Shown: positions 1 to 38,399 of the stretch, piece after piece
Numbering within the stretch: position 1 is the stretch's first letter
Layout of the letters: every line of letters starts with the position of its first letter
From: Flavobacteriaceae bacterium
GTDB lineage: Bacteria; Bacteroidota; Bacteroidia; Flavobacteriales; Flavobacteriaceae
Direction: 5' to 3'
Length of the DNA stretch: 38,399 bases
Assembly: GCA_023260435.1 (NCBI GenBank)
Contig: JALQVG010000090.1
Coordinates: forward strand, 1-38,399
Notes under the pieces: generated by a model
Told to the model about the DNA's origin: nothing
Databases searched by the model: none
Seen by the model: the letters and a program-made list of their open reading frames with translations, nothing else
Translations under genes and position numbers: made by a program

Positions 1-1775
1 TGTGCTCCCCGAGATGGACACCGTTCCATGCTCTGGAGCCGTGACCACCGAGTAGGTTAATGTATCCCCGTCCACATCAGTGGCTGTCAGAGCTACCTCT
101 ACCGAAGTGTCTTCATCTGTAGTGGCGCTGGCTGTGGCTGATATGGGGACGTCGTTGACCGAAGTGATGATCAGGGTAACGCTCGATGTATTAGAGTCTA
201 CTAGTCCATCGCTAGCTTTAAACGTAAAGCTATCCGATCCATTGTAGTTAGCTTCTGGAGTGTAGGTAGCTATGCTCCCCGTGATGGACACTGTTCCATG
301 TTCAGGGGTGGTGACTACCGAGTAGGTTAAACTATCCCCATCTGCGTCAGTGGCGGTGAGTTGGATTTCTGCCGAAGTGTCCTCAGCTGTATTGGCGCTG
401 GCTGTGGTTGATATGGGGACATCGTTGACCGAAGTGATGATCAGGGTAACGCTCGATGTATTGGAATCTACTATTCCGTCGCTAGCTTTAAATGTAAAGC
501 TGTCTGACCCAAAGTAGTTAGCCTCTGGAGTATACGTCGCGGTGCTCCCCGAGATGGACACCGTTCCATGCTCTGGAGCGGTAACCACCGAGTAGGTTAA
601 TGTGTCTCCGTCCGCATCAGTGGCTGTCAGAGCTACCTCTACCGAAGTGTCTTCATCTGTAGTGACGCTGGATGTGGCTGAGATAGGAGCGTCGTTGACT
701 GAGGTGATGGTCAAGGTAACGCTCGATGTATTAGAGTCTACAAGTCCATCGCTAGCTTTGAACGTAAAGCTATCTGATCCGTTGTAGTTAACCTCTGGAG
801 TGTAAGTCGCTGTACTTCCCGTGATGGACACTGTTCCATGCTCAGGGGCGGTGACTACTGTAAATGTGAGTGCATCAGCGTCTGCATCAGTGGCTGTGAG
901 TTGGATTTCCACTGAGCTGTCTTCAGATGTAGTAGCGCTGACTGTTGAAGCAACAGGAGCTTCATTAACAGAAACAATAGTGATTGTTATTGAAGCTGTA
1001 TTTGAATCTAACGCTCCATCATTAGCTTTGTAGGTGAAACTATCTGATCCAGAGTAGTTTGCCTCGGGAGTATAGGTCGCTGTGCTTCCCGTTATGGACA
1101 CTGTTCCATGCTCTGGCGCAGTGACTACTAAGTAGGTTAAACTATCCCCGTCTGCATCAGTAGCTGTTAATGGTATATTTGCCTGAGCGTTTTTCAATAT
1201 TCTTGCAACTAAAGTAGACGTGACAGGAGCGTCATTAACCGAGGTGATGGTCAAGGTAATGCTCGATGTATTGGAGTCTACCGTACCATCATTGGCTTTG
1301 TAAGTGAAACTATCTGACCCAAAGTAGTTAGCTTCTGGTGTGTAGGTCGCTGTACTTCCCAAGATGGACACTGTTCCATGCTCTGGAGCAGAAACTAACG
1401 AATAAGTTAAGTCATCCTCGTCCACATCAGTGGCTGTGAGTTGGATCTCAACTGAGCTGTCTTCAGCTGTAGTGGCGCTAGCTGTGGTTGAGACAGGAAC
1501 ATCATTCACAGGTTCAATGGTGATTGTAACGGATCCAACATTGGAGTCAGCTAGCCCGTCATTGGCCTTAAATGTAAAGCTATCTGATCCATAATAGTTT
1601 TGATTAGGTGTATACGTAGCTATATTATCAGTAATGGTAACTGTACCGTTTTGAGGCAATACATCTACAAAAAATGAAAGGGGATTATTATCTGCATCTG
1701 TTCCAGACAAGTTGACAACCACAGATTCGTCTTCACTGGTACTAATCGAAATATTTTGGACAATCGGCGCAGAAT
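1..1775 (-). repeat. Exact 270-bp tandem repeat (90-aa cadherin-like units)
   Basis: The codon for the His (Asn in the first unit) of the conserved (H/N)GTV motif has its first base at 1650, 1380, 1110, 840, 570, 300 and 30, a constant 270-bp step with no indel. Each unit encodes the same frame: an N(D/S)AP-like start, an LTATDxDGD-like stretch, EHGTVSI, TYTPEANY, GSDSFT(F/Y)KANDG and a DSNT end. The first-translated unit (about 1510-1775) is the most diverged. Units near the window edge are very similar at DNA level, and 1-270 resembles 541-810 more than it resembles its neighbour 271-540. The array continues past the window edge. Confidence 0.95.
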
Positions 1776-4700
1776 TATCTAAATTTGAATTACAATAAAT
1801 TGTTAGATTGTCTAGATTCCAAGTATCAGTTGGATCGATTGCATTCATCACCGTGTAATACTTTATCCATCCATCTGATTGCACGACTTTTTTCAACCCA
1901 AAACCAATAATTCCCTCTTCATATTCATTCCCAGAATTGTCGTTTAAAATTGATAAATTAAAGTTCCTGTGTCCCCAATTTGAGGAGCTGTCATCATAAT
2001 TCCAAGAATAAATTGCATGTTCAATGGGTATTGTACTTTCTGCAGGTTTATTGGCCAGGTAGGCAAGATTTTCAGCAAAACCGTAAAACTCTGTATTGTT
2101 TTTTATCACTTGGTTAGAGTCTAATCTTTCCCATGGTGAATCAGTTTGAACCCCATTGATACTTAAGGAAAGATTATGTGTCAATCCACTATTATTTTGT
2201 GCAAGTGCATCTGCATATATCTGAGCTATCTCTGAAACTTCAGAACCTACACCTTGAAATGGAGGTAATCCCCTGGCAACTCTCTCTGAATTCAAAATAA
2301 ATAATCCTTTTTCCTGAATCGAGAGCAAAAACCATTTTTCAATTTTTTCACTCTCTGAACATATAATACCCCCATTGGGGCATACTTTGATTTTAAATTC
2401 TTCAGGTATTTCAAATGATTTATATGCTGGATAAACTGATGAATCAAGATTTCTAGCAGCTGTGAAGTTTGCTTCGATATCCGCAACACTAACAGTTACA
2501 GTAGAGCCCGACCATGCTCTATCATTAAATCCAGATGGAATAGGCAAATAATTATTGTTGTTATCTTCGTTATAGTCGTTTAACGCGGATTGATTTATTT
2601 GATTAAGCTTTGGACCACATACACATTCAATACACTCTTCATCAACTCTGTTTGAATAAATCAATTTTCTAACACCATCATACTGAACAGCGTAAAGATC
2701 TTGAAGTTGACTTTCAGGTTGCCTTTCTGACTCTAAAAATACCGGCTCAGGATTGATAAACACATTTTTAAGCTTGCCATTAACATAATTTTCATACACT
2801 ATAACGTTTGACCAATTAACTGGTGTTATCACATTATAGTCAATCTGATAAGTGCCGTCTATTATTTTTGTTTGATTCTTAAATAAATTAAAATTGTTGT
2901 CTGTTATATATTCTACTGCATCAGTGATTTTGGTTTTACCCAATTGGTTAACCTTGTTTTTATATAGGTCTATTACCTCTGAAGTCATGCTAAATGTGTC
3001 AGGACCATAGTAATCCCCGGCAACATATGTTCCCTCCTTGAAAAAACTCCATTTTTCAAAGAAATTGGTAAAATCTTTAGAAGAAGCTTTAGCAACTAAA
3101 TATGTGAAATTCAACATGGCGTGTTCTACTTCCAAATCATTTTCCGGCTTACGTGCTAAATCATGAACTTGGGGGTAGAAATCATCAATACCAAGGACCT
3201 TTGTACAATAAAGGTATAATTGCCAAAACATAGCCATCTTATCAGGAAGTTCATCGGCAAATGAATTATTTTCTACGAAAAAAGTATTCCAAGATTGTTC
3301 ATAACGTGTTCCAAAATTATCCGTGGGATTTAATTCCTTACTTAGTTCATGACCCAACTTTTCCACCCATGCATAATATGCAGAAATGTTACAGGTAGTT
3401 TCAGTTAGGTTACCCCAGTTTAACGCCTGCCTTATTTGCATACTGTGACCCCACTCATGGACAGTTCCAAAAAAATCGTCTTTAAAAAGAGTTGAATTAA
3501 AATTTTTATCCAATGTAGGAACACCCTCCCAACTACCATTGGTATCAGATACATTGAAAAATACAGCATAAGGTGAAGCGTATTTATATTTTTTATAGAC
3601 CCCTGCAATATGACTGTGATTTGGTATTTCTTTACCGGGTATATCGATATGTCCATGTATTTTTCTGGCTAGATAATTTAGCTCATCATACATATCTATG
3701 AGGTCCTTACCATTATCAGTTAATTCTTTAAAGCCGCTTAACGGAAATGTAATTTGTACGTAATCACCTATTACATCATAGTATGGGTATTGAGCGATAT
3801 CTAACAGGCCTGTCCACTCCTCCCTGTTTCGTACTCTTCCATCAAAATATCCATTAACTCTACCATACATAAAATGAAGCTGTGCCTCTGGTTCATTTTT
3901 GTAATCTTCACTCCAATACTGAACGTAAAACAATCCGTTTTGTTCCGCTTTAATTAGGTTGACCCCTTTTTTAAGCGAATAGTATACCTGTTGATCATCC
4001 AAGGGATTTACTCTTGTGTCGAAAACTGACGGATCATCTGCCTTATGTGGCCAAAAATCAACTTGCAACAGGTCAACATCTTGGTCAGAAACCACAAAAA
4101 TTTCATCATCTTTGTTGAGATAAATACCAGTTACATTACTGCACCTACTCTGAGGGTATATTTTAAGTTCATTGGAAACTTTTGAGGGGTGTCGATAGGC
4201 TTTATACGATTGAACCCTAAAATCGTGAGAGTATGACTGATTATATACCTCCTTTGCATAATTTTTAAAAAAATCATTATCAGAAATTGCATCAATCTGT
4301 TCCAATGTAACGCCCTCTTTAAGTTGCGTAAACATGCTATCAGAAAAAATAGTAGTTGGATCAAATGTAGACTGACTTGATTCCCAGAAATCAATTTCTG
4401 CAACGGTAACCATATTGTTCTGTCCAGAAATAAATTTAAATTCAACACTGGAAACATTAGGATAAGTATTACCTAAGTCAATAGTGTAATAGAAGTTCTC
4501 CTCTTCAGAGTAAGCTCTATTGAATTGAGTAAACCCATTTCCAACATTATTAAAAACCTCCTCACTTGAAGAGTCACTATAAATAACTTTGATTATTAAC
4601 TCCTTCCAGTGACCATCAACATCTACTACATCTGTTCTGGGGTAATAATCCAATTTACTCAGATTTGATGGAGATTCAAAGTTGTACTGAAGGGTTACTG

Positions 4701-4935
4701 GAAAAGTAGTTCCATCTTTAATACTGTGGTACTCAGTGCCAAGATCATTGTCGTAACTGCTGGCAGGGGAATATTTTGTGGAAGTACTTTGATTGCGGTA
4801 TTCGCTTGAAGTAGCTGATAATATCTTTATTTCCTTATGCCCAGCAGGTGAGATTGGTGTGGGTAACGTTTGGCCATACAATGATATTGCAACAAAAGAT
4901 GCTAAAAAATAAACTAAAAATTTACTAACCTTCAT
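1..4935 (-). CDS. Giant secreted M60-like metallopeptidase with CAP domain and cadherin-like repeats (C-terminus cut by window edge)
   Basis: The frame is open for 1645 codons from the ATG at 4935 to base 1 with no stop. Order of parts: signal peptide (about residues 1-21, ending near LYGQ); discoidin/F5-8C-like domain (about 28-165); M60/enhancin-type peptidase domain (about 190-650) with zinc motif HEWGH at 493-497 and a Glu at 512, which fits the family pattern HExxH(8-28)E; a Cys-rich linker (ECIECVCG); CAP/SCP domain (about 877-1045) with LNSER, a conserved His, AEN and NWGHR motifs; then cadherin-like (Big_9 type) repeats of 90 residues from about 1053 to the edge. M60 enzymes commonly cut mucin-type glycoproteins, so a surface or secreted glycoprotein-degrading role is likely but inferred. 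A T9SS tail, if present, lies outside the window. The ATG overlaps the TGA of the TetR gene upstream. The first 3 kb is AT-rich while the repeat part is less so. Confidence 0.85.
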   Translation of the reverse strand, partial: MKVSKFLVYFLASFVAISLYGQTLPTPISPAGHKEIKILSATSSEYRNQSTSTKYSPASSYDNDLGTEYHSIKDGTTFPVTLQYNFESPSNLSKLDYYPRTDVVDVDGHWKELIIKVIYSDSSSEEVFNNVGNGFTQFNRAYSEEENFYYTIDLGNTYPNVSSVEFKFISGQNNMVTVAEIDFWESSQSTFDPTTIFSDSMFTQLKEGVTLEQIDAISDNDFFKNYAKEVYNQSYSHDFRVQSYKAYRHPSKVSNELKIYPQSRCSNVTGIYLNKDDEIFVVSDQDVDLLQVDFWPHKADDPSVFDTRVNPLDDQQVYYSLKKGVNLIKAEQNGLFYVQYWSEDYKNEPEAQLHFMYGRVNGYFDGRVRNREEWTGLLDIAQYPYYDVIGDYVQITFPLSGFKELTDNGKDLIDMYDELNYLARKIHGHIDIPGKEIPNHSHIAGVYKKYKYASPYAVFFNVSDTNGSWEGVPTLDKNFNSTLFKDDFFGTVHEWGHSMQIRQALNWGNLTETTCNISAYYAWVEKLGHELSKELNPTDNFGTRYEQSWNTFFVENNSFADELPDKMAMFWQLYLYCTKVLGIDDFYPQVHDLARKPENDLEVEHAMLNFTYLVAKASSKDFTNFFEKWSFFKEGTYVAGDYYGPDTFSMTSEVIDLYKNKVNQLGKTKITDAVEYITDNNFNLFKNQTKIIDGTYQIDYNVITPVNWSNVIVYENYVNGKLKNVFINPEPVFLESERQPESQLQDLYAVQYDGVRKLIYSNRVDEECIECVCGPKLNQINQSALNDYNEDNNNNYLPIPSGFNDRAWSGSTVTVSVADIEANFTAARNLDSSVYPAYKSFEIPEEFKIKVCPNGGIICSESEKIEKWFLLSIQEKGLFILNSERVARGLPPFQGVGSEVSEIAQIYADALAQNNSGLTHNLSLSINGVQTDSPWERLDSNQVIKNNTEFYGFAENLAYLANKPAESTIPIEHAIYSWNYDDSSSNWGHRNFNLSILNDNSGNEYEEGIIGFGLKKVVQSDGWIKYYTVMNAIDPTDTWNLDNLTIYCNSNLDNSAPIVQNISISTSEDESVVVNLSGTDADNNPLSFFVDVLPQNGTVTITDNIATYTPNQNYYGSDSFTFKANDGLADSNVGSVTITIEPVNDVPVSTTASATTAEDSSVEIQLTATDVDEDDLTYSLVSAPEHGTVSILGSTATYTPEANYFGSDSFTYKANDGTVDSNTSSITLTITSVNDAPVTSTLVARILKNAQANIPLTATDADGDSLTYLVVTAPEHGTVSITGSTATYTPEANYSGSDSFTYKANDGALDSNTASITITIVSVNEAPVASTVSATTSEDSSVEIQLTATDADADALTFTVVTAPEHGTVSITGSTATYTPEVNYNGSDSFTFKASDGLVDSNTSSVTLTITSVNDAPISATSSVTTDEDTSVEVALTATDADGDTLTYSVVTAPEHGTVSISGSTATYTPEANYFGSDSFTFKASDGIVDSNTSSVTLIITSVNDVPISTTASANTAEDTSAEIQLTATDADGDSLTYSVVTTPEHGTVSITGSIATYTPEANYNGSDSFTFKASDGLVDSNTSSVTLIITSVNDVPISATASATTDEDTSVEVALTATDVDGDTLTYSVVTAPEHGTVSISGST

Positions 4936-31072: not shown

Positions 31073-32227
31073 CTACAAACCAGCACCAGACCCTAGCGAA
31101 GAAAGATCAAAAGAGACCGAAAACCTCAAGGTGTTTTCCAAGGGGTTGCGCACCTGGGCAGTAGATATTAGATAAGCCAGATCAATTTGGGCATTTTTCA
31201 AACCAAACCCAGCGCCCAGGGTGACGTATTTTCTGAAACCCTTATCTCTATGCTCACTCAGGTAACCGGCCCTCATGGCCAGCTTTTGGAATACGACATA
31301 CTCCAAACCAGTAGACCAAACCACCTCTTTTAGCTCCTCAGCTATGCCCCCAGGGGCGTCTCCAAAGGAACGCAATGCTCCCGAGAAGAAATCTATATCT
31401 TGATAGAGACTCAAATCCGTACCATCGACAAAACCATCGTCGTTTAGATCTTTTGGCGTGGGTACCATCAATTTGTTTAGCTCAAATACCCAGGAGAGTC
31501 GACTGTCTGGTCCGTAGTCCCAATCATAACCGATACCCACCCCGAGGTTGGTGGGAATAAACAGGGATTCGCCGGTAGAATCATAGGCTATTTTAGGCCC
31601 CAGGTTGGACAAATTAAATCCCCAAATCCAACGCCCGTCATGCCCTTGTTTCGGCAACCACGGACCTTGTCTGTACGCGGAAATATCTACAGCAAAAGTC
31701 TGGGCTGCACGGGTATCTACTTGGGTTGACTGAGGTATCTTGAGGTTAGAACGCACATATCTACCCCCTACAGACATACTAAAAAACGGGCTCAACTGCA
31801 GGGCATAGGCACCCTCTACGGCAATTTCATTGGGTTTGGCCAATGCGCCCGGATCAGAGGCAAACTGCCTCAATTCAATCTCACCCAGGGTAAAATAGCG
31901 CAATCCCAAAGAAAAAGCAGATCGATCATCGATGCGTTTGGCATACACGCCACTCAACAAATTGATGTCCGTTATCACGCTTTCCAGGTAAGGGGTGTAG
32001 CCCACACCTATTTGCTGTTCCCAAGGCACGAAAGCCAGTTTAGCTGGATTCCAGCGGATCGAATAGACGTCTGGCGCAGTCACAATACCCGCATCCCCCA
32101 TCCCCGATGCGCGGGCGTCTGAAGGGATCGTCAGGAAAGGCACCGCTGGGTTGATGATGCGGTCGTTAAAATTTTGGGCAAATGCACCTGCACTGATCAA
32201 CAGTGCCATGGCCAATAAATTTCTCAT
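31073..32227 (-). CDS. porV: T9SS outer membrane protein PorV (LptO)
   Basis: 384 residues from the ATG at 32227 (MRNLLAMALLISAGAFAQ signal peptide). It is a FadL-like outer-membrane beta barrel: an N-terminal plug segment AVPFLTIPSDARASGMGDAGIVTAPDVYSIRWNPAKLAF, alternating strands such as FSLGLRYFTLGEIELR and FSMSVGGRYVRS, and a final strand LRFSVSFDL. PorV shuttles T9SS cargo from the SprA translocon to the cell-surface attachment complex and is needed for most T9SS substrates, such as the metzincin encoded at 9137-12910. It lies divergent from gldJ; porU is not between them. A longer frame from 32269 would put the signal peptide internal, so it was rejected. Confidence 0.92.
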   Translation of the reverse strand: MRNLLAMALLISAGAFAQNFNDRIINPAVPFLTIPSDARASGMGDAGIVTAPDVYSIRWNPAKLAFVPWEQQIGVGYTPYLESVITDINLLSGVYAKRIDDRSAFSLGLRYFTLGEIELRQFASDPGALAKPNEIAVEGAYALQLSPFFSMSVGGRYVRSNLKIPQSTQVDTRAAQTFAVDISAYRQGPWLPKQGHDGRWIWGFNLSNLGPKIAYDSTGESLFIPTNLGVGIGYDWDYGPDSRLSWVFELNKLMVPTPKDLNDDGFVDGTDLSLYQDIDFFSGALRSFGDAPGGIAEELKEVVWSTGLEYVVFQKLAMRAGYLSEHRDKGFRKYVTLGAGFGLKNAQIDLAYLISTAQVRNPLENTLRFSVSFDLSSLGSGAGL

Positions 32228-32376
32228 GAACAGGATTTGGGCTACACAAAAAACGGAAAATTCACCCATCTATTGTGCAGAAATCTGGAATATTACCAAA
32301 ACAACAAAATAAAACGCTTCGGTCAGCGTTGATCTAAAAAAAGAAAGGCAGTCCTTATATTATACCCCTGGAATGC

Positions 32377-32404: not shown

Positions 32405-34060
32405 ATGATGCATACCAGACGTGCGGTTTTTTTAGCGGCAACTTGCTCAGCACTATTGGCCTTGGGAAGCTGTAAGAACAGCGCCTCCAAAAACGAATCA
32501 AGAGCTACTGGATGGAGTTTAAACGACAAAAACAGTCCTTTGAGCCAACCCAAAAGTAGCCAAGCGCAAAAAACTGGACCTGGATTGGTCTTTATCGAAG
32601 GGGGGTCCTTTGTAAAGGGACGTGTTCAAGACGATATCATGCGCGACTGGAACAATACCCCTACCCAACAACACGTCCAGTCTTTTTACATGGACGAAAC
32701 AGAGGTAACCAACGCCATGTACCTGGAGTTTTTAGAGTATATCAAAGCTGTTTACCCACCTTCTAACCCTAAATATGACGGTATTTACCAAAGCGCCTTA
32801 CCCGACACCTTGGTGTGGCGCAACCGACTTTCTTACAATGAGGATTTGGTAGAAAACTACTTGAGACATCCCGCCTTTGCGGATTTCCCAGTCGTAGGTG
32901 TGAGCTGGTTACAAGCACAGAGATTTGCCCAGTGGAGAACCAATCGTGTGAATGAATTACTCTTGGAAGAAAATGGCTTCCTGGAAAAAGACGCCAGATT
33001 TAAACCTCTGGAAAATGAGATGGTGGCCTTTGACACAGAGGCCTATTTAAAAAATCCAAATGCAGCGTATGGAGGTGCTATTGATTCTTTGGCCAGAAGA
33101 GCCTCCAGAGATACCATCCCTTCTTTTGCCAAATTAAGCGATGGCGTTTTGTTACCCGCTTATCGACTACCCACGGAGACAGAATGGGAATACGCCGCTC
33201 AAGCCCCTGGCAGTCAGCGCGAATTCAACAATTATAAAGGAAGAAAGAAATTTCCCTGGGAGGGAAATCAAACTAGAGATACGGACCGCAGAGTATTGGG
33301 CGATCAGCTGGCCAACTTCAAAAAAGGCAAAGGTGACTACGGCGGTATTGCCGGTTGGTCAGAAGATGGTGGCTCTGTCACCACACCTGTGAAAATGCAT
33401 CCAGCCAATGATTTTGGCCTTTACGGTATGGGAGGCAACGTAGCTGAATGGGTGGCTGACGTGTACCGACCCATCATCGACAGCGATTACAGCGACTTCA
33501 ATTATTACCGAGGTAATGTATTCCAAAAAGCAGCTATCGGTAAGGATGGAAAAGTGGCTGTGCTCCAGGAAGGAATCGAATTTGACACACTTCCCAACGG
33601 CAAATTATCGGTAAAGAGATTACCTGGCGAAGTAGTCAAAGTACCTGTAGGTAATGAAGATACCTTTATGCGCTTCAATTATTCAGAAAGCGACAACAGA
33701 AACTTTAATGACGGTGATTTGGCCTCCTCCAGAGGATACAACCGCTACAACGAAGAAAACACCGACAAAAACCGCATGTACAACGCGCCCAAACCTTTGG
33801 TCGCCCGCGACAGCACCGGTGGGTTGATTTTGGAATACGACAAATCCAATAACCGAAGCTCCATGATTACCAACGATGTGCGCGTCTACAAAGGCGCCTC
33901 GTGGAAAGATCGAGCTTACTGGCTGGATCCTGCTCAAAGAAGGTATATGCCAGAGTATATGTCTACTGATTTTATCGGGTTTAGATGCGCTATGTCTTAT
34001 TTAGGCAGCAAACCTAAGTCCCTGAACCGTACCCCAAAAAGCAAAACGGCCAAAAAGTGA
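32405..34060 (+). CDS. gldJ: Gliding motility/T9SS lipoprotein GldJ
   Basis: 551 residues, near the length of known GldJ. The lipoprotein signal ends in ALGSC with Cys23. The body is a formylglycine-generating-enzyme (SUMF1)-like fold: GPGLVFIEGGSFVKG, YMDETEVTNAMYLEF, FPVVGVSWLQAQRFAQWRTN, RLPTETEWEYAA, GLYGMGGNVAEWVADVYRP, then GASWKDRAYWLDPAQRRY and GFRCAMSY. The FGE catalytic Cys pair is not evident, as expected for GldJ/GldK. GldJ stabilises other Gld proteins and the GldK-N ring of the T9SS. The length and the murF neighbour favour GldJ over GldK, which normally heads a gldKLMN run. ATG at 32405 or 32408 are both possible. Confidence 0.9.
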   Translation: MMHTRRAVFLAATCSALLALGSCKNSASKNESRATGWSLNDKNSPLSQPKSSQAQKTGPGLVFIEGGSFVKGRVQDDIMRDWNNTPTQQHVQSFYMDETEVTNAMYLEFLEYIKAVYPPSNPKYDGIYQSALPDTLVWRNRLSYNEDLVENYLRHPAFADFPVVGVSWLQAQRFAQWRTNRVNELLLEENGFLEKDARFKPLENEMVAFDTEAYLKNPNAAYGGAIDSLARRASRDTIPSFAKLSDGVLLPAYRLPTETEWEYAAQAPGSQREFNNYKGRKKFPWEGNQTRDTDRRVLGDQLANFKKGKGDYGGIAGWSEDGGSVTTPVKMHPANDFGLYGMGGNVAEWVADVYRPIIDSDYSDFNYYRGNVFQKAAIGKDGKVAVLQEGIEFDTLPNGKLSVKRLPGEVVKVPVGNEDTFMRFNYSESDNRNFNDGDLASSRGYNRYNEENTDKNRMYNAPKPLVARDSTGGLILEYDKSNNRSSMITNDVRVYKGASWKDRAYWLDPAQRRYMPEYMSTDFIGFRCAMSYLGSKPKSLNRTPKSKTAKK

Positions 34061-35334
34061 ATTTTACGTCCTTAGAAGAGCTATACGCCTCCTTTTTAAA
34101 ACACCCTAGTGTTTGTACCGACAGCCGTAAAATCACTCCCAATTGCTTGTTTTTTGCCTTATCAGGCCCAAATTTTGATGGGAACTCATTTGCCTCAGCA
34201 GCCTTGGAAGCAGGAGCAGCTTTCTCCATCATCGACAAACCCGACTTTTATATCGACGGACAAACCCTGTTAGTGCCCGATGTACTGACCGCGATTCAGG
34301 ATCTGGCCAAACACCACAGAAACCACCTGAACATCCCCATTATTTCCCTTACCGGAAGCAATGGAAAAACAACTACCAAGGAATTGATCGCTGCTGTTTT
34401 GGCACAAAAATTCAAAGTAGTAGCCACCCAAGGAAACCTGAACAACCACATAGGAGTACCCCTCACCCTGCTCTCTATGAGTACAGACACAGAAGTTGGG
34501 GTGGTAGAAATGGGCGCCAACCATCAAGGAGAAATCAAGATGCTTTGCGATATAGCGCAACCCAATTTCGGATACATCACCAACTTTGGCAAGGCCCACT
34601 TGGAAGGATTTGGAGGTGTTGAAGGAGTCATCAAAGGCAAATCAGAGCTCTACCAGTCCATCACGGAACGCCATGAGCATATTTTCTATCGCGCAGAGGA
34701 CCCTATTCAAGAGGAAAAACTAGCTAGCTACGCCAACAAAACCTCTATTGATCCAGGGCAATTTCCCGAGATTGAATTGAGTCGAAAAGAACCCACCTTG
34801 GTGCTGAGCTGGTCTGGATTGTCAATCAAAACTCAGTTATTTGGTGATTATAATTTTATCAACCTTTGCGCCGCCATCAGAATCGGAACTTATTTTGGTG
34901 TACCCATACAAAAAATTGCCGAGGCCCTGAGCATCTACACACCGAATAACAATAGATCTCAAACGCTTAAAAGGGATCAATACACCTTGGTACTGGATGC
35001 TTACAACGCCAATCCAAGCAGTATGTCAGCCGCACTAAAACACCTCTCTCAAATCGAAGCCCCGAAAAAAACAGCCATTCTTGGCGATATGTTTGAATTG
35101 GGTTCCTCAGCTGCAGAGGAACACCAACACATAGCAGAGTTGGCGACCTCGATCGGGATCGATCAAGTGATCTTAGTGGGCAATCACTTTGCAGCAACAA
35201 ACACCTCCGCCAAAACATTTAGCGATATTGAGCAACTCAAAATAGCACTTGCTGACATGGATCTTTCGAACCATTGGGTGCTCATCAAAGGATCCAGAGG
35301 TATGGCACTGGAACGTTTACTCGAGGTTATTTAG
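34057..35334 (+). CDS. murF: UDP-N-acetylmuramoyl-tripeptide:D-Ala-D-Ala ligase
   Basis: 425 residues. It adds D-Ala-D-Ala to UDP-MurNAc-tripeptide, the last cytoplasmic step of the peptidoglycan precursor. The N-terminal substrate domain has VCTDSRKITPNCLFFALSG. The ATP loop is SLTGSNGKTTTKEL, followed by TQGNLNNHIGVPLTLL and EMGANHQGEI. The central domain includes FGKAHLEGFGG. The C-terminal domain has LDAYNANPSSMSAAL and LGDMFELG, then LIKGSRGMALE. The start is GTG overlapping the gldJ stop (GTGA), implying coupled translation. The end overlaps the opposite-strand kelch-regulator gene by 8 bp. Confidence 0.96.
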   Translation: MNFTSLEELYASFLKHPSVCTDSRKITPNCLFFALSGPNFDGNSFASAALEAGAAFSIIDKPDFYIDGQTLLVPDVLTAIQDLAKHHRNHLNIPIISLTGSNGKTTTKELIAAVLAQKFKVVATQGNLNNHIGVPLTLLSMSTDTEVGVVEMGANHQGEIKMLCDIAQPNFGYITNFGKAHLEGFGGVEGVIKGKSELYQSITERHEHIFYRAEDPIQEEKLASYANKTSIDPGQFPEIELSRKEPTLVLSWSGLSIKTQLFGDYNFINLCAAIRIGTYFGVPIQKIAEALSIYTPNNNRSQTLKRDQYTLVLDAYNANPSSMSAALKHLSQIEAPKKTAILGDMFELGSSAAEEHQHIAELATSIGIDQVILVGNHFAATNTSAKTFSDIEQLKIALADMDLSNHWVLIKGSRGMALERLLEVI

Positions 35335-36661
35335 CTCTCCAGGCAAACCTTTGCTTGTCTATGGTGTAAATAATGATACGTTTGTCTCGCTCTGATTTAT
35401 GGGACTCAATAAGATCCTGTTCGATTTTAAATACCGTTTTCAATTTATAATTCAGCTCGCTGATCACCAGGTTTTTAGTGCGCATATTGTGCGAATAATT
35501 GTGTTCTGGGTTTTCAATCAACTTCATCAAAGAACTGGTCTCAACCCCTGATTCTGCAGCCAACAAGCATTCGAGCACTTCTACTTGTACTTGGTCAAGT
35601 TTATAAAAAACTCGCTTGTACACGAGACCATCGTTTCTGAGCAAAGCACTATTGGCCATGGATTTGGTTCTTTTGTACACCCTATATCCAATGAATCCAA
35701 ATAAAACTACGGGCAAAACCATCAAAAGCCAAGGCCAATGGTTCTTTTTATAAAAAGGGTACTCCTCAATAACGGGGCCGAAAAACTCATCTTCTAATCG
35801 AGTCTCTAAAAAATGCATGTTGACATTATTGGCATTCATCAACAAGTAAAAGGTACCGTTGTGGAACTTGCTGATTCCTTTGCCGAGAATCTTTTTGTGA
35901 ATAGTGTTTTGACGATATTTACGAACTTTATTGTTAAAAGGGTCAAACACATATAAAAAAGGGTCGCTTTGCAGGATTAACTTGTCCTGATACATCATGT
36001 AGAAATTCTCTTCCATGGAATGGATATCCATCTGAATTTCCCCCAGATTTTCCCAAACCATTTTATCCAAGTCATACTGCCAAACGTCGTCTGTATTGAC
36101 ATCAGTGACTAAGTCCCTTTGATCAAGTGTATTACCTCCAAAAACAATTACTTTATTTCCATTATACACAATACGATTATCCTTGGTCCCTTCCGGTATC
36201 TCCTGCGTATTAATTGGAGGCACTACGTCCCACTCCCTTATATCAGTATCGTACTTGGTGAAGAAATTACGGTTCGACCAAAATCCATAACCCCCGTATC
36301 TGTAGATGTGATTATTGTGAACAAATTGTGTGGAATTTATCTGCATTCTATGCTCAAACGATCGATCGATGCGCTGCAAACTATCGTTTTGTAACTTCCA
36401 AACATAGCCCCCTAAACTCTTGGTAAAATAGATGCCATCAGACAACACCTCCATTTTATCAAATCTAAAACCATCCTCAACTCCTCTGTAAAAGGGACGT
36501 CGCTTAAACTCTATTTGTTCCGCGGAACTTACATAGATACTATTTTTAGTAAAAACGTACACACTGTCTTTATAAATAGCCATATCCATGATTTCATCGG
36601 AGGGAAACTGTGCATAGAGTGAGTAGGTTGCCAGGTAAGCCAAAAACAGTATTCTCTTCAT
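35327..36661 (-). CDS. Membrane-anchored kelch-like sensor with C-terminal probable winged-helix domain
   Basis: 444 residues from the ATG at 36661 (MKRILFLAYLATYSLYAQ signal peptide). The periplasmic part (about 20-300) has kelch/beta-propeller-like repeats: DGIYFTKSLGGYVWKLQND, HIYRYGGYGFWSNRN, KVIVFGGNTL-type and DDVWQYDLDKMVWENLG blades. One transmembrane helix follows (about 308-328, WPWLLMVLPVVLFGFIGY), then a basic stop-transfer stretch and a cytoplasmic domain of about 105 residues. That domain resembles a winged helix: LDQVQVEVLECLLAA, then RTKNLVISELNYKLK, and an ESHKSERDKRIIIYTI wing-like end. This would be a one-component transmembrane regulator. The ligand and targets are unknown; the divergent plug-like gene is the obvious candidate. 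A longer frame from 36733 would bury the signal peptide. Confidence 0.75.
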   Translation of the reverse strand: MKRILFLAYLATYSLYAQFPSDEIMDMAIYKDSVYVFTKNSIYVSSAEQIEFKRRPFYRGVEDGFRFDKMEVLSDGIYFTKSLGGYVWKLQNDSLQRIDRSFEHRMQINSTQFVHNNHIYRYGGYGFWSNRNFFTKYDTDIREWDVVPPINTQEIPEGTKDNRIVYNGNKVIVFGGNTLDQRDLVTDVNTDDVWQYDLDKMVWENLGEIQMDIHSMEENFYMMYQDKLILQSDPFLYVFDPFNNKVRKYRQNTIHKKILGKGISKFHNGTFYLLMNANNVNMHFLETRLEDEFFGPVIEEYPFYKKNHWPWLLMVLPVVLFGFIGYRVYKRTKSMANSALLRNDGLVYKRVFYKLDQVQVEVLECLLAAESGVETSSLMKLIENPEHNYSHNMRTKNLVISELNYKLKTVFKIEQDLIESHKSERDKRIIIYTIDKQRFAWRAK

Positions 36662-36779
36662 AGTGCAACTTGTTTGAACTAGTATTAATATCGCGCAACT
36701 AAATATACAAAAACTGGATACTATTGTACCCATAGGAAACTACTCACTGAAATAAAATAGGTATCTTAGAAAAAAAGTC

Positions 36780-37223
36780 ATGAAACAAGCCTTATTATTA
36801 CTCGCATTTTTGGCTGTCACCGGGACATCTACAGGTCAATCCAACACACAGGATCCTGTCAGAGACACCATTGCACTGAAAGAAGTCAAGGTGACCAAGG
36901 TGAAAAAGAAAAAAGTAAAAGCGAACGCCTATATAGATGTTAACGCCAGCAGCCTTTTTCAAGCCATCAGAGCACATATGGGCAATGCGCGACTCGTAAA
37001 TAACAAAGTAATTTTATTGGCTGATCGAAGATATGCACCTACCACAGGTTCCCCTTACGCTATTTGGGTAGTCGATGGAGCTATTATCGGTGAAGAACTC
37101 CCCGCGCTTGACTTTAACAGCATCACAAAAGTTCGGGTACTTAAAACCATTATAGAAACAGAACCTTATGGATTTAGAGGTGCCTCAGGTGTCATCGAAA
37201 TAACTACCTCTAGAGAACACTAA
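36780..37223 (+). CDS. Small secreted protein resembling a stand-alone TonB-receptor plug domain
   Basis: 147 residues. A signal peptide of about 19 residues ends near TSTGQ. A short basic stretch (KVTKVKKKKVKAN) follows. The rest (about 50-145) resembles the plug of SusC/TonB-dependent receptors: YAIWVVDGAIIGEELPALD, then NSITKVRVLKT, then EPYGFRGASGVIEITT, parallel to the receptor pattern VDG...I..I.VLKda...YG.rGanGVI.ITT. There is no barrel and no carboxypeptidase-like domain; the stop is followed by a tRNA, so it is not a truncated end of a longer visible frame. Similar short proteins occur in Bacteroidota as far as I recall, without known function. It is divergent from the kelch sensor with 118 bp between them. 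Confidence 0.75.
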   Translation: MKQALLLLAFLAVTGTSTGQSNTQDPVRDTIALKEVKVTKVKKKKVKANAYIDVNASSLFQAIRAHMGNARLVNNKVILLADRRYAPTTGSPYAIWVVDGAIIGEELPALDFNSITKVRVLKTIIETEPYGFRGASGVIEITTSREH

Positions 37224-37303: not shown

Positions 37304-37310
37304 GTTACTG

Positions 37311-37385
37311 TGGGCCCTACTGGGTTCGAACCAGTGACCCCCTGCTTGTAAGGCAGGTGCTCTGAACCAGCTGAGCTAAGAGCCC
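37311..37385 (-). tRNA. tRNA-Val(UAC)
   Basis: 75 nt on the minus strand without encoded CCA. Acceptor GGGCTCT pairs with AGGGCCC (one G-U). D-arm GCTCAGCTGGTTCAGAGC. Anticodon stem CCTGC/GCAGG with loop CTTACAA, giving anticodon TAC. T-arm CTGGG-TTCGAAC-CCAG region and discriminator A. It reads GUA-type valine codons. Confidence 0.96.
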
Positions 37386-37462: not shown

Positions 37463-38399
37463 TTACACGACTTCTGCAACGACAAAGGTACTTCCACCCA
37501 CATAAATCAAATCTTCGGTAGCTGCCTGAGTTTTTGCAGCTTCAAAGGCTTGATTTACAGAGCTGTACGCTGATCCGTGCAGTCCGTGTAATTGAGCAAT
37601 GTCCTGAAGTAATGCTACTGGAAGTGCACGCATCATCTGTGGCGCACAAAAATAATAATGGGCTGTCTTGGGGAATAGCGGCAAAACAGCGGACAAATCT
37701 TTGTCTTTGACAAATCCAAGTACTAGATGTAATCGCCTGTATGGGGTGGCCTGTAGCTGCTGAAGCGTTAAAGTTAATCCATCCACATTGTGGGCTGTAT
37801 CTGCGATACAAGTTGGATGAGTGGACAGCACTTGCCAGCGACCTTGAAATCCAGTTAATGTCTGTACTTGACTTAATCCAGCACGAACATGTTCTTCGGT
37901 GATTCCCCATGCCTTGGCTAAATGTTTGAGGACGCTCAATACACCTTGGATATTTTTCTTTTGGTAGCTACCCTGGAGATCACAGGGGTAATCTGGATGC
38001 ATTTGCTGATCCGCAAAAACGATCGCAACACCGGCCTGTTTGGCACAACTTAAAAAAACATTTTTTACTTCATCTTGAGTCTGTGAGATCACTACAGGAA
38101 CACCCGGCTTGATGATTCCGGCTTTTTCAGATGCGATCTCAACCAGGGTATGGCCTAGTAAATCCATATGATCCCAACCTATGTTGGTAATCAACGAAAT
38201 CTCCGGAATAATGATGTTGGTGGCATCTAGTCTACCGCCTAAACCAACTTCAATCACGGCGATATCTACCTGCTGTTGAGCAAAATAATCCAAAGCCATT
38301 CCTACGGTCAGCTCAAAAAAAGACAACTGGTTAGCCTCAATAAAATCCTTGTTTTGGGCGATAAAATCAACAACGAATGATTCTGGAGCCATGCGGCCG
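37463..38399 (-). CDS. folC: Folylpolyglutamate synthase/dihydrofolate synthase (N-terminus cut by window edge)
   Basis: The frame runs in from the right edge; codons before Met at 38392 read Gly-Arg, matching the family NGRM-type stretch, so this Met is internal and not the start. 311 residues are visible. Seen: APESFVVDF, then FELTVGMALDYF, then IAVIEVGLGGRLDATNII, NIGWDHMDLLGHTLVEIASEKAGIIKPG, a GFQGRWQ segment and ADTAHNVDG, ending LIYVGGSTFVVAEVV. The ATP P-loop (GTNGKGS-type) lies outside the window. It adds glutamate to dihydropteroate and folates, using ATP. It is upstream of tRNA-Val on the same strand; the tRNA has its own promoter. Confidence 0.93.
   Translation of the reverse strand, partial: GRMAPESFVVDFIAQNKDFIEANQLSFFELTVGMALDYFAQQQVDIAVIEVGLGGRLDATNIIIPEISLITNIGWDHMDLLGHTLVEIASEKAGIIKPGVPVVISQTQDEVKNVFLSCAKQAGVAIVFADQQMHPDYPCDLQGSYQKKNIQGVLSVLKHLAKAWGITEEHVRAGLSQVQTLTGFQGRWQVLSTHPTCIADTAHNVDGLTLTLQQLQATPYRRLHLVLGFVKDKDLSAVLPLFPKTAHYYFCAPQMMRALPVALLQDIAQLHGLHGSAYSSVNQAFEAAKTQAATEDLIYVGGSTFVVAEVV

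Follow-up and report, generated by a model that had tools for sequence, protein, structure and literature searches.

The window, the whole 38,399-nucleotide stretch of DNA from a marine member of the Flavobacteriaceae that we analyzed, encodes a 147-residue protein that resembles the plug of a SusC-type TonB-dependent receptor and has no barrel. The sequence comparisons strongly support a receptor-derived plug identity, and hydropathy predicts that the protein is exported. Barrel-less plug copies of this kind are kept by purifying selection. We tentatively favor the explanation, at somewhat less than an even chance, that the exported plug works on the TonB network from within the periplasm, with a kelch-propeller protein encoded beside it as the likeliest partner or controller. 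The mechanism of such a free plug is one that we infer. The relevant features are as follows.

36780 to 37223, + strand: gene of the barrel-less plug protein (ATG start, 147 aa)
36780 to 36839, + strand: signal-peptide-like N-terminus, residues 1 to 20, hydrophobic peak at 4 to 18 (hydropathy; cleavage site placed by eye)
36864 to 36899, + strand: TonB-box-like segment DTIALKEVKVTK, residues 29 to 40 (motif L.EV.[VIL]; compare the Bt1763 Ton box)
36897 to 36923, + strand: lysine-rich linker KVKKKKVKA, residues 40 to 48 (K/R count across stand-alone plugs)
36933 to 37217, + strand: plug-like domain, residues 52 to 146 (HHalign; TIGR04056 and TIGR04057)
36662 to 36779, no strand: upstream region shared by the divergent plug and kelch genes (exactly 118 bp)
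35327 to 36661, - strand: kelch-propeller protein of 444 aa with a signal-peptide-like start, one transmembrane (TM) segment and a conserved cytoplasmic domain (Kelch_2, 4.8e-7)
35675 to 35734, - strand: TM segment of the kelch protein, residues 310 to 329 (hydropathy 1.77 at residue 311)

The preliminary description treated positions 36662 to 37223 as one span, which comprises the 118-bp intergenic region and the plug open reading frame (ORF). Its account of a secreted, plug-like product without a barrel is upheld: the start is signal-peptide-like, the signature motifs that it quoted are present in the 147-aa protein, the frame is closed by a stop, no barrel match was found, and tRNA-Val comes next. 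We also found no CarboxypepD_reg domain in the protein, and the computed pI of its mature form is 9.7. The length given for the shared region was likewise exact. The roles that it suggested, namely blocking receptor plugs, binding ligand, and signaling, are putative. In this region we looked for TTG-N17-23-TAnnTTTG, which we take to be the promoter pattern, and its strict form is absent from positions 36662 to 36779.

The plug-like reading is borne out by sequence-profile homology to SusC-type plugs. NCBIfam TIGR04056 (SusC/RagA) matches residues 90 to 144 (E 6.5e-6), and TIGR04057 also matches the protein (E 6.6e-5), both weakly. Pfam Plug (PF07715) gave no match to it even at E 10, and the top PDB sequence matches were SusC homologs below significance (0.061; 0.017 in a second search). 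When a profile of the 16 genus members was compared by HHalign with 14 receptor plugs, residues 52 to 146 aligned with a probability of 97.7 (E 2.1e-12), against a maximum of 0.4 in 30 column-shuffled controls. The 14 plugs were the usable frames out of 27 receptor loci, and 10 of them had been retrieved using the window protein itself; against only the four Pfam-selected receptors the result was lower, at 75.8% (E 2.3e-5), and against each of these singly it was 91.3, 11.7, 0.3, and 0.4. What we regard as the strongest argument for plug identity is a bridge to unambiguous SusC N-termini. The genus profile finds two proteins, L127 (2.5e-20) and L128 (3.6e-17), that consist of a signal peptide, CarboxypepD_reg, and plug and then end; L128 covers positions 1 to 204 of the 981 in the SusC model (E 7.8e-22), with Pfam Plug above cut-off. 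AlphaFold, run on three sequences, returned no usable model of the plug protein (pLDDT 36).

The protein had been called an orphan, a label that does not hold, as it is a member of a barrel-less plug family with 16 copies in the genus and relatives outside it. The genus copies are spread over 11 of 12 genomes, and the sole genome without one, G006, is 82% complete. Relatives of the window plug share 95% identity with it in G005 and 81% in G003. A search of 299 family genomes returned more short-frame relatives, mostly in genomes of 1.1 to 2.1 Mb, and 20 stand-alone loci outside the genus were read in detail. Our table of 36 stand-alone plugs excludes L129 and the first ORF of L130, and the counts take nothing from an order-wide search using lipoprotein plugs, which was swamped by full receptors. 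Across the family the invariant part is the plug motif (DG, YG..G..GVI.I); no gene neighborhood is common to all of its members. Some of the plugs outside the genus are lipoproteins, judged by the N-terminus, some share a neighbor such as pirin, and there is a gradual transition between the family and proteins that are clearly a SusC N-terminus lacking the barrel. With the class taken as an export signal and a plug, no barrel, and an intact selected frame, the window protein is a member. The family is a defined gene set in which free-plug function can be tested.

Several loci deserve mention in their own right. At L131:4199-7383 and L133:3616-6782 (- strand), the stop of a lipoprotein plug gene and the start of the next gene, which encodes a T9SS-secreted subtilase with a PKD domain, overlap, and L135:6403-7222 (- strand) holds a tandem pair of lipoprotein plug genes that are 52% identical and above the Pfam Plug cut-off. 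A 220-aa frame at G003:C16:93234-93560 has a strong Pfam Plug match and may be either a stand-alone plug or a contig-edge fragment. A viral scan gave two matches, of which L148 was inspected and looks spurious.

Relative to a SusC/RagA-type TonB-dependent receptor, the window protein has some 95 residues of plug homology, a preceding TonB-box-like segment, and predicted export, but it lacks the 22-stranded barrel and CarboxypepD_reg, does not reach Pfam Plug, and carries a Lys-rich linker. Like the barrel-less plug ORFs of other Flavobacteriaceae (L126 to L135), it consists of a signal (or, in those, a lipoprotein signal) and a plug and nothing else; unlike it, some of those ORFs pass Pfam Plug, are lipoproteins, or keep CarboxypepD_reg, and their neighbors differ. 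ORFs of this type are presumably what NCBI names “TonB-dependent receptor plug domain-containing protein.” The isolated FepA plug (Usher et al. 2001, as cited in PMC11658791) is also a plug without a barrel, but it is a laboratory construct that behaved as unfolded, whereas the window protein is the product of a natural gene. A free, selected plug of this sort would show, in a natural setting, whether plugs can fold and act in the absence of a barrel. Our literature search, in which subscription journals were mostly outside coverage, turned up no study of naturally occurring barrel-less plugs and none of kelch/TM regulators of TonB receptors, both of which are weak negatives.

The divergent, single-TM kelch neighbor that the preliminary description reported is confirmed by the kelch matches and TM segment listed above. 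Its cytoplasmic domain is strongly conserved (HNYSHNMRTKN), yet this part had no Pfam match and AlphaFold gave no confident model of the C-terminal domain (pLDDT 45). With a domain that is conserved and has no assigned family, the earlier term “regulator” describes a putative role. Near a kelch paralog at L152:2189-3758 (- strand), two small ORFs resemble the kelch cytoplasmic domain (HHalign 89.8 and 55.2; shuffled controls at most 8.2).

The preliminary description took a lack of adjacency in other genomes as refuting the pair; on that check, a kelch gene adjoins the plug gene in 6 of the 16 genus copies and 6 of the 12 genus genomes. In three of these genomes (the window's, G005, and G003) the two are divergent, with a gap of 118 bp in each; in the other three (G001, G009, and G011) they are co-directional, with gaps of 101, 101, and 60 bp. 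Pairing is recurrent within the genus, but it does not extend further: none of the 20 stand-alone loci outside the genus has a kelch gene beside the plug, and only 2 of 10 outside plug-bearing genomes have a kelch match at all, on another contig. A second observation also speaks against the pair as a conserved unit: the plugs of the divergent and co-directional groups do not form one clade (p-AU 0.0004, on a tree of 23 of the 41 rows of a first tree, the tested group having been chosen after that tree was seen). The kelch orthologs do form a clade (support 100/99), which also holds those of G002 and G004, where there is no plug neighbor. Since the kelch genes are orthologous and the two plug groups are not one clade, the slot has held two plug lineages beside kelch. 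This non-monophyly counts against a fixed kelch-plug pair, and we take the sensing pair to be a lineage-level association that is suggestive only.

Among the 26 kelch copies in the genus, 6 are beside a stand-alone plug, 6 are upstream of a receptor, and 14 are neither. The receptor-associated copies lie directly upstream of a plug-bearing receptor ORF on the same strand, five at 23 to 69 bp and one at 583 bp; the five represent one conserved slot, in which one receptor is broken, and the sixth represents another. By our own grouping there are 12 kelch slots, 3 of which have a plug gene (p 0.0015 to 0.011, post hoc and assuming a rough 2% to 4% chance per slot). This co-occurrence gives the best indication of a connection between kelch proteins and TonB receptors.

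The same arrangements bear on an alternative, the two-gene sensing system of the preliminary description, in which the plug would be the periplasmic input of the kelch/TM protein, the propeller binding the plug and the cytoplasmic domain altering gene expression. We consider this unlikely, though a serious contender. The recurrent adjacency in two arrangements, the occupation of the slot by both plug lineages, the two further slots in which a kelch paralog immediately precedes a full receptor, and the presence of a plug gene in 3 of the 12 slots are all consistent with it, but 10 of the 16 genus plugs and all of the outside loci are without an adjoining kelch gene, and the G002 and G004 orthologs are without a plug. 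The post hoc naming of the AU group also weighs against it, as does the C-terminal domain, for which DNA binding is only putative.

The TonB-box-like segment would link the protein to the TonB network. In the window protein, LKEVKV at residues 33 to 38 fits L.EV.[VIL]; the Ton box of the SusC protein Bt1763 is DEVVVTG, according to PMC7782687. The motif lies near the N-terminus in 8 of the 36 stand-alone plugs, namely the seven of the window's clade and G189C9. Within residues 19 to 50, it occurs in 12 of 495 ORFs of the same loci, including 7 stand-alone plugs and 2 complete receptors; both receptors read DTTALNEVVLTA, and the motif is found in receptors beside kelch paralogs. The other 28 plugs, among them the copies nearest exbB/exbD and one behind an M56-TonB_C gene, have no such motif, which rules out TonB binding as a function common to all of the family. 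In other clades, a Lys/Arg-rich segment replaces the motif, and 28 of 36 plugs contain a 20-residue stretch with 8 or more K/R. In members that lack a TonB box, this polybasic segment may hold the protein at the envelope instead.

The basic segment also suggests an envelope role unrelated to TonB, in which a small, basic, periplasmic plug-fold protein would use its Lys-rich tail to bind an acidic envelope component such as lipid or peptidoglycan. The Lys/Arg-rich stretch is commoner than the TonB box and the mature window protein is strongly basic by its computed pI, but the invariant plug motif suggests that a plug-type surface is in use, and we see this role as fairly improbable.

Flavobacteria have many TonB receptors and few TonB motors shared among them, and four members of the genus have 16 to 25 Plug matches per genome. 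For the shared motor, a plug that is free, under selection, and equipped with a TonB box would suit as a decoy or a load sensor. In the explanation that we favor, the exported plug would stay in the periplasm as a free plug, where it would occupy or report on the TonB network and import nothing. Within the genus, the neighboring kelch/TM protein, whose paralogs precede complete receptors, would be its likeliest partner or controller and might read the plug. SusC proteins make a plug outside a barrel plausible: when the transporter is closed and empty, the plug is fully out of the barrel, although the authors consider this expulsion likely non-physiological (PMC7782687). Because most family members have no TonB box, a TonB-network mechanism should be treated with caution. 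The narrower proposal that the free plug gauges the workload of TonB by docking its TonB box, with the kelch TM protein as readout, is doubtful in our view. If it were such a TonB-load messenger, the soluble plug would be what is left of a receptor cut down to the part that moves and put to new use, and kelch proteins would be a new class of monitors in marine flavobacteria, watching over both complete and reduced TonB receptors.

A free plug might instead enter a plug-less barrel encoded elsewhere, making a split receptor. SusC plugs do exit the barrel as a unit in vitro (PMC7782687), and a plug-less barrel-like protein was found in 16 of 20 genomes searched, including the window's. However, that protein reaches well beyond the genus, its barrel matches are weak (E 4e-7 in G009, 2e-4 in G011), and the other plug-less barrel matches in four genomes are in short frames, near contig starts, or interrupted by stops, all of which leaves a split receptor quite improbable. 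The full-length candidates from the four genomes searched proved to be one widespread barrel-like family. Examples of this outer membrane protein are at L145:2293-4038 (- strand), L146:2392-4251 (- strand), and G000:C102:4308-5534; its N-terminus reads ESVTVVKNYAP, and it adjoins a repeat-rich gene that is TPR-like by eye.

We give only a very slight chance to the plug being a decaying, functionless receptor remnant. In G009, the receptor beside a kelch paralog is in two pieces, a plug-bearing ORF of 220 aa and a barrel stretch interrupted by stops (L149:3593-5670; receptor remains at G009:C7:346995-347960), possibly a route from receptor to stand-alone plug or possibly an assembly error, and the kelch-adjacent plug of G011 no longer has a signal peptide. 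Decay would fit both cases, but it is contradicted by the selection test, in which dN/dS was 0.05 to 0.12 among pairs with dS below 1 (plug, 0.10 to 0.12 for G000/G005; pairs with dS above 1, the plug and kelch of G000/G003, are not relied on), and by the retention of at least one copy in 11 of the 12 genus genomes.

The plug and kelch genes sit in a slot with the following flanks.

37310 to 37385, - strand: tRNA-Val (tac), a conserved landmark of the slot
37463 to 38398, - strand: folC-like gene of the Mur ligase family, named from its Mur ligase domains, a slot flank with its 5' end past the window
34057 to 35334, + strand: murF-like gene, the other slot flank (Mur_ligase_M/C)
32405 to 34060, on the kelch side: FGE-domain gene, which we take to be gldJ-like
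31073 to 32269, on the kelch side: PorV match

In G001, G008, G009, and G011, nhaD, exbB, exbD, a TonB-like gene, folC, tRNA-Val, and the plug lie on one strand (ExbB, ExbD, and the other families were tested on the G009 copies). The TonB-like gene (P0003) was named by eye and had no TonB match in Pfam or NCBIfam. The window's genome has matching nhaD-exbB-exbD-TonB-like genes that continue past the end of contig C16, which is consistent with, though does not prove, the same slot order. The porV and gldJ-like genes within 6 kb could recall the type IX secretion Plug subunit that closes the SprA translocon (6H3J; PMC7463736), with which the window protein shares a name, a predicted periplasmic place, and such neighbors, but this identity has next to no chance, as there is no sequence match and the sequence points to TonB receptor plugs. 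A comparison of the family profile with PDB sequences at E up to 10 found SusC homologs and no T9SS Plug chain.

In G004, a BlaI gene and the gene of an M56 peptidase with a TonB_C domain precede another plug copy, at a distance of 111 bp. This arrangement and the one-strand order with exbB and exbD tie plug genes to TonB-type genes and count in favor of the TonB-network explanation. At L042:3142-5554, BlaI, an M56-TonB_C fusion, and a stand-alone plug stand in a row, a candidate protease-sensor/plug unit. At the far end of the window, positions 30 to 4935 (- strand) encode a very large protein with tandem-95 repeats (NCBIfam NF012211, 1.1e-97) that runs off the window start.
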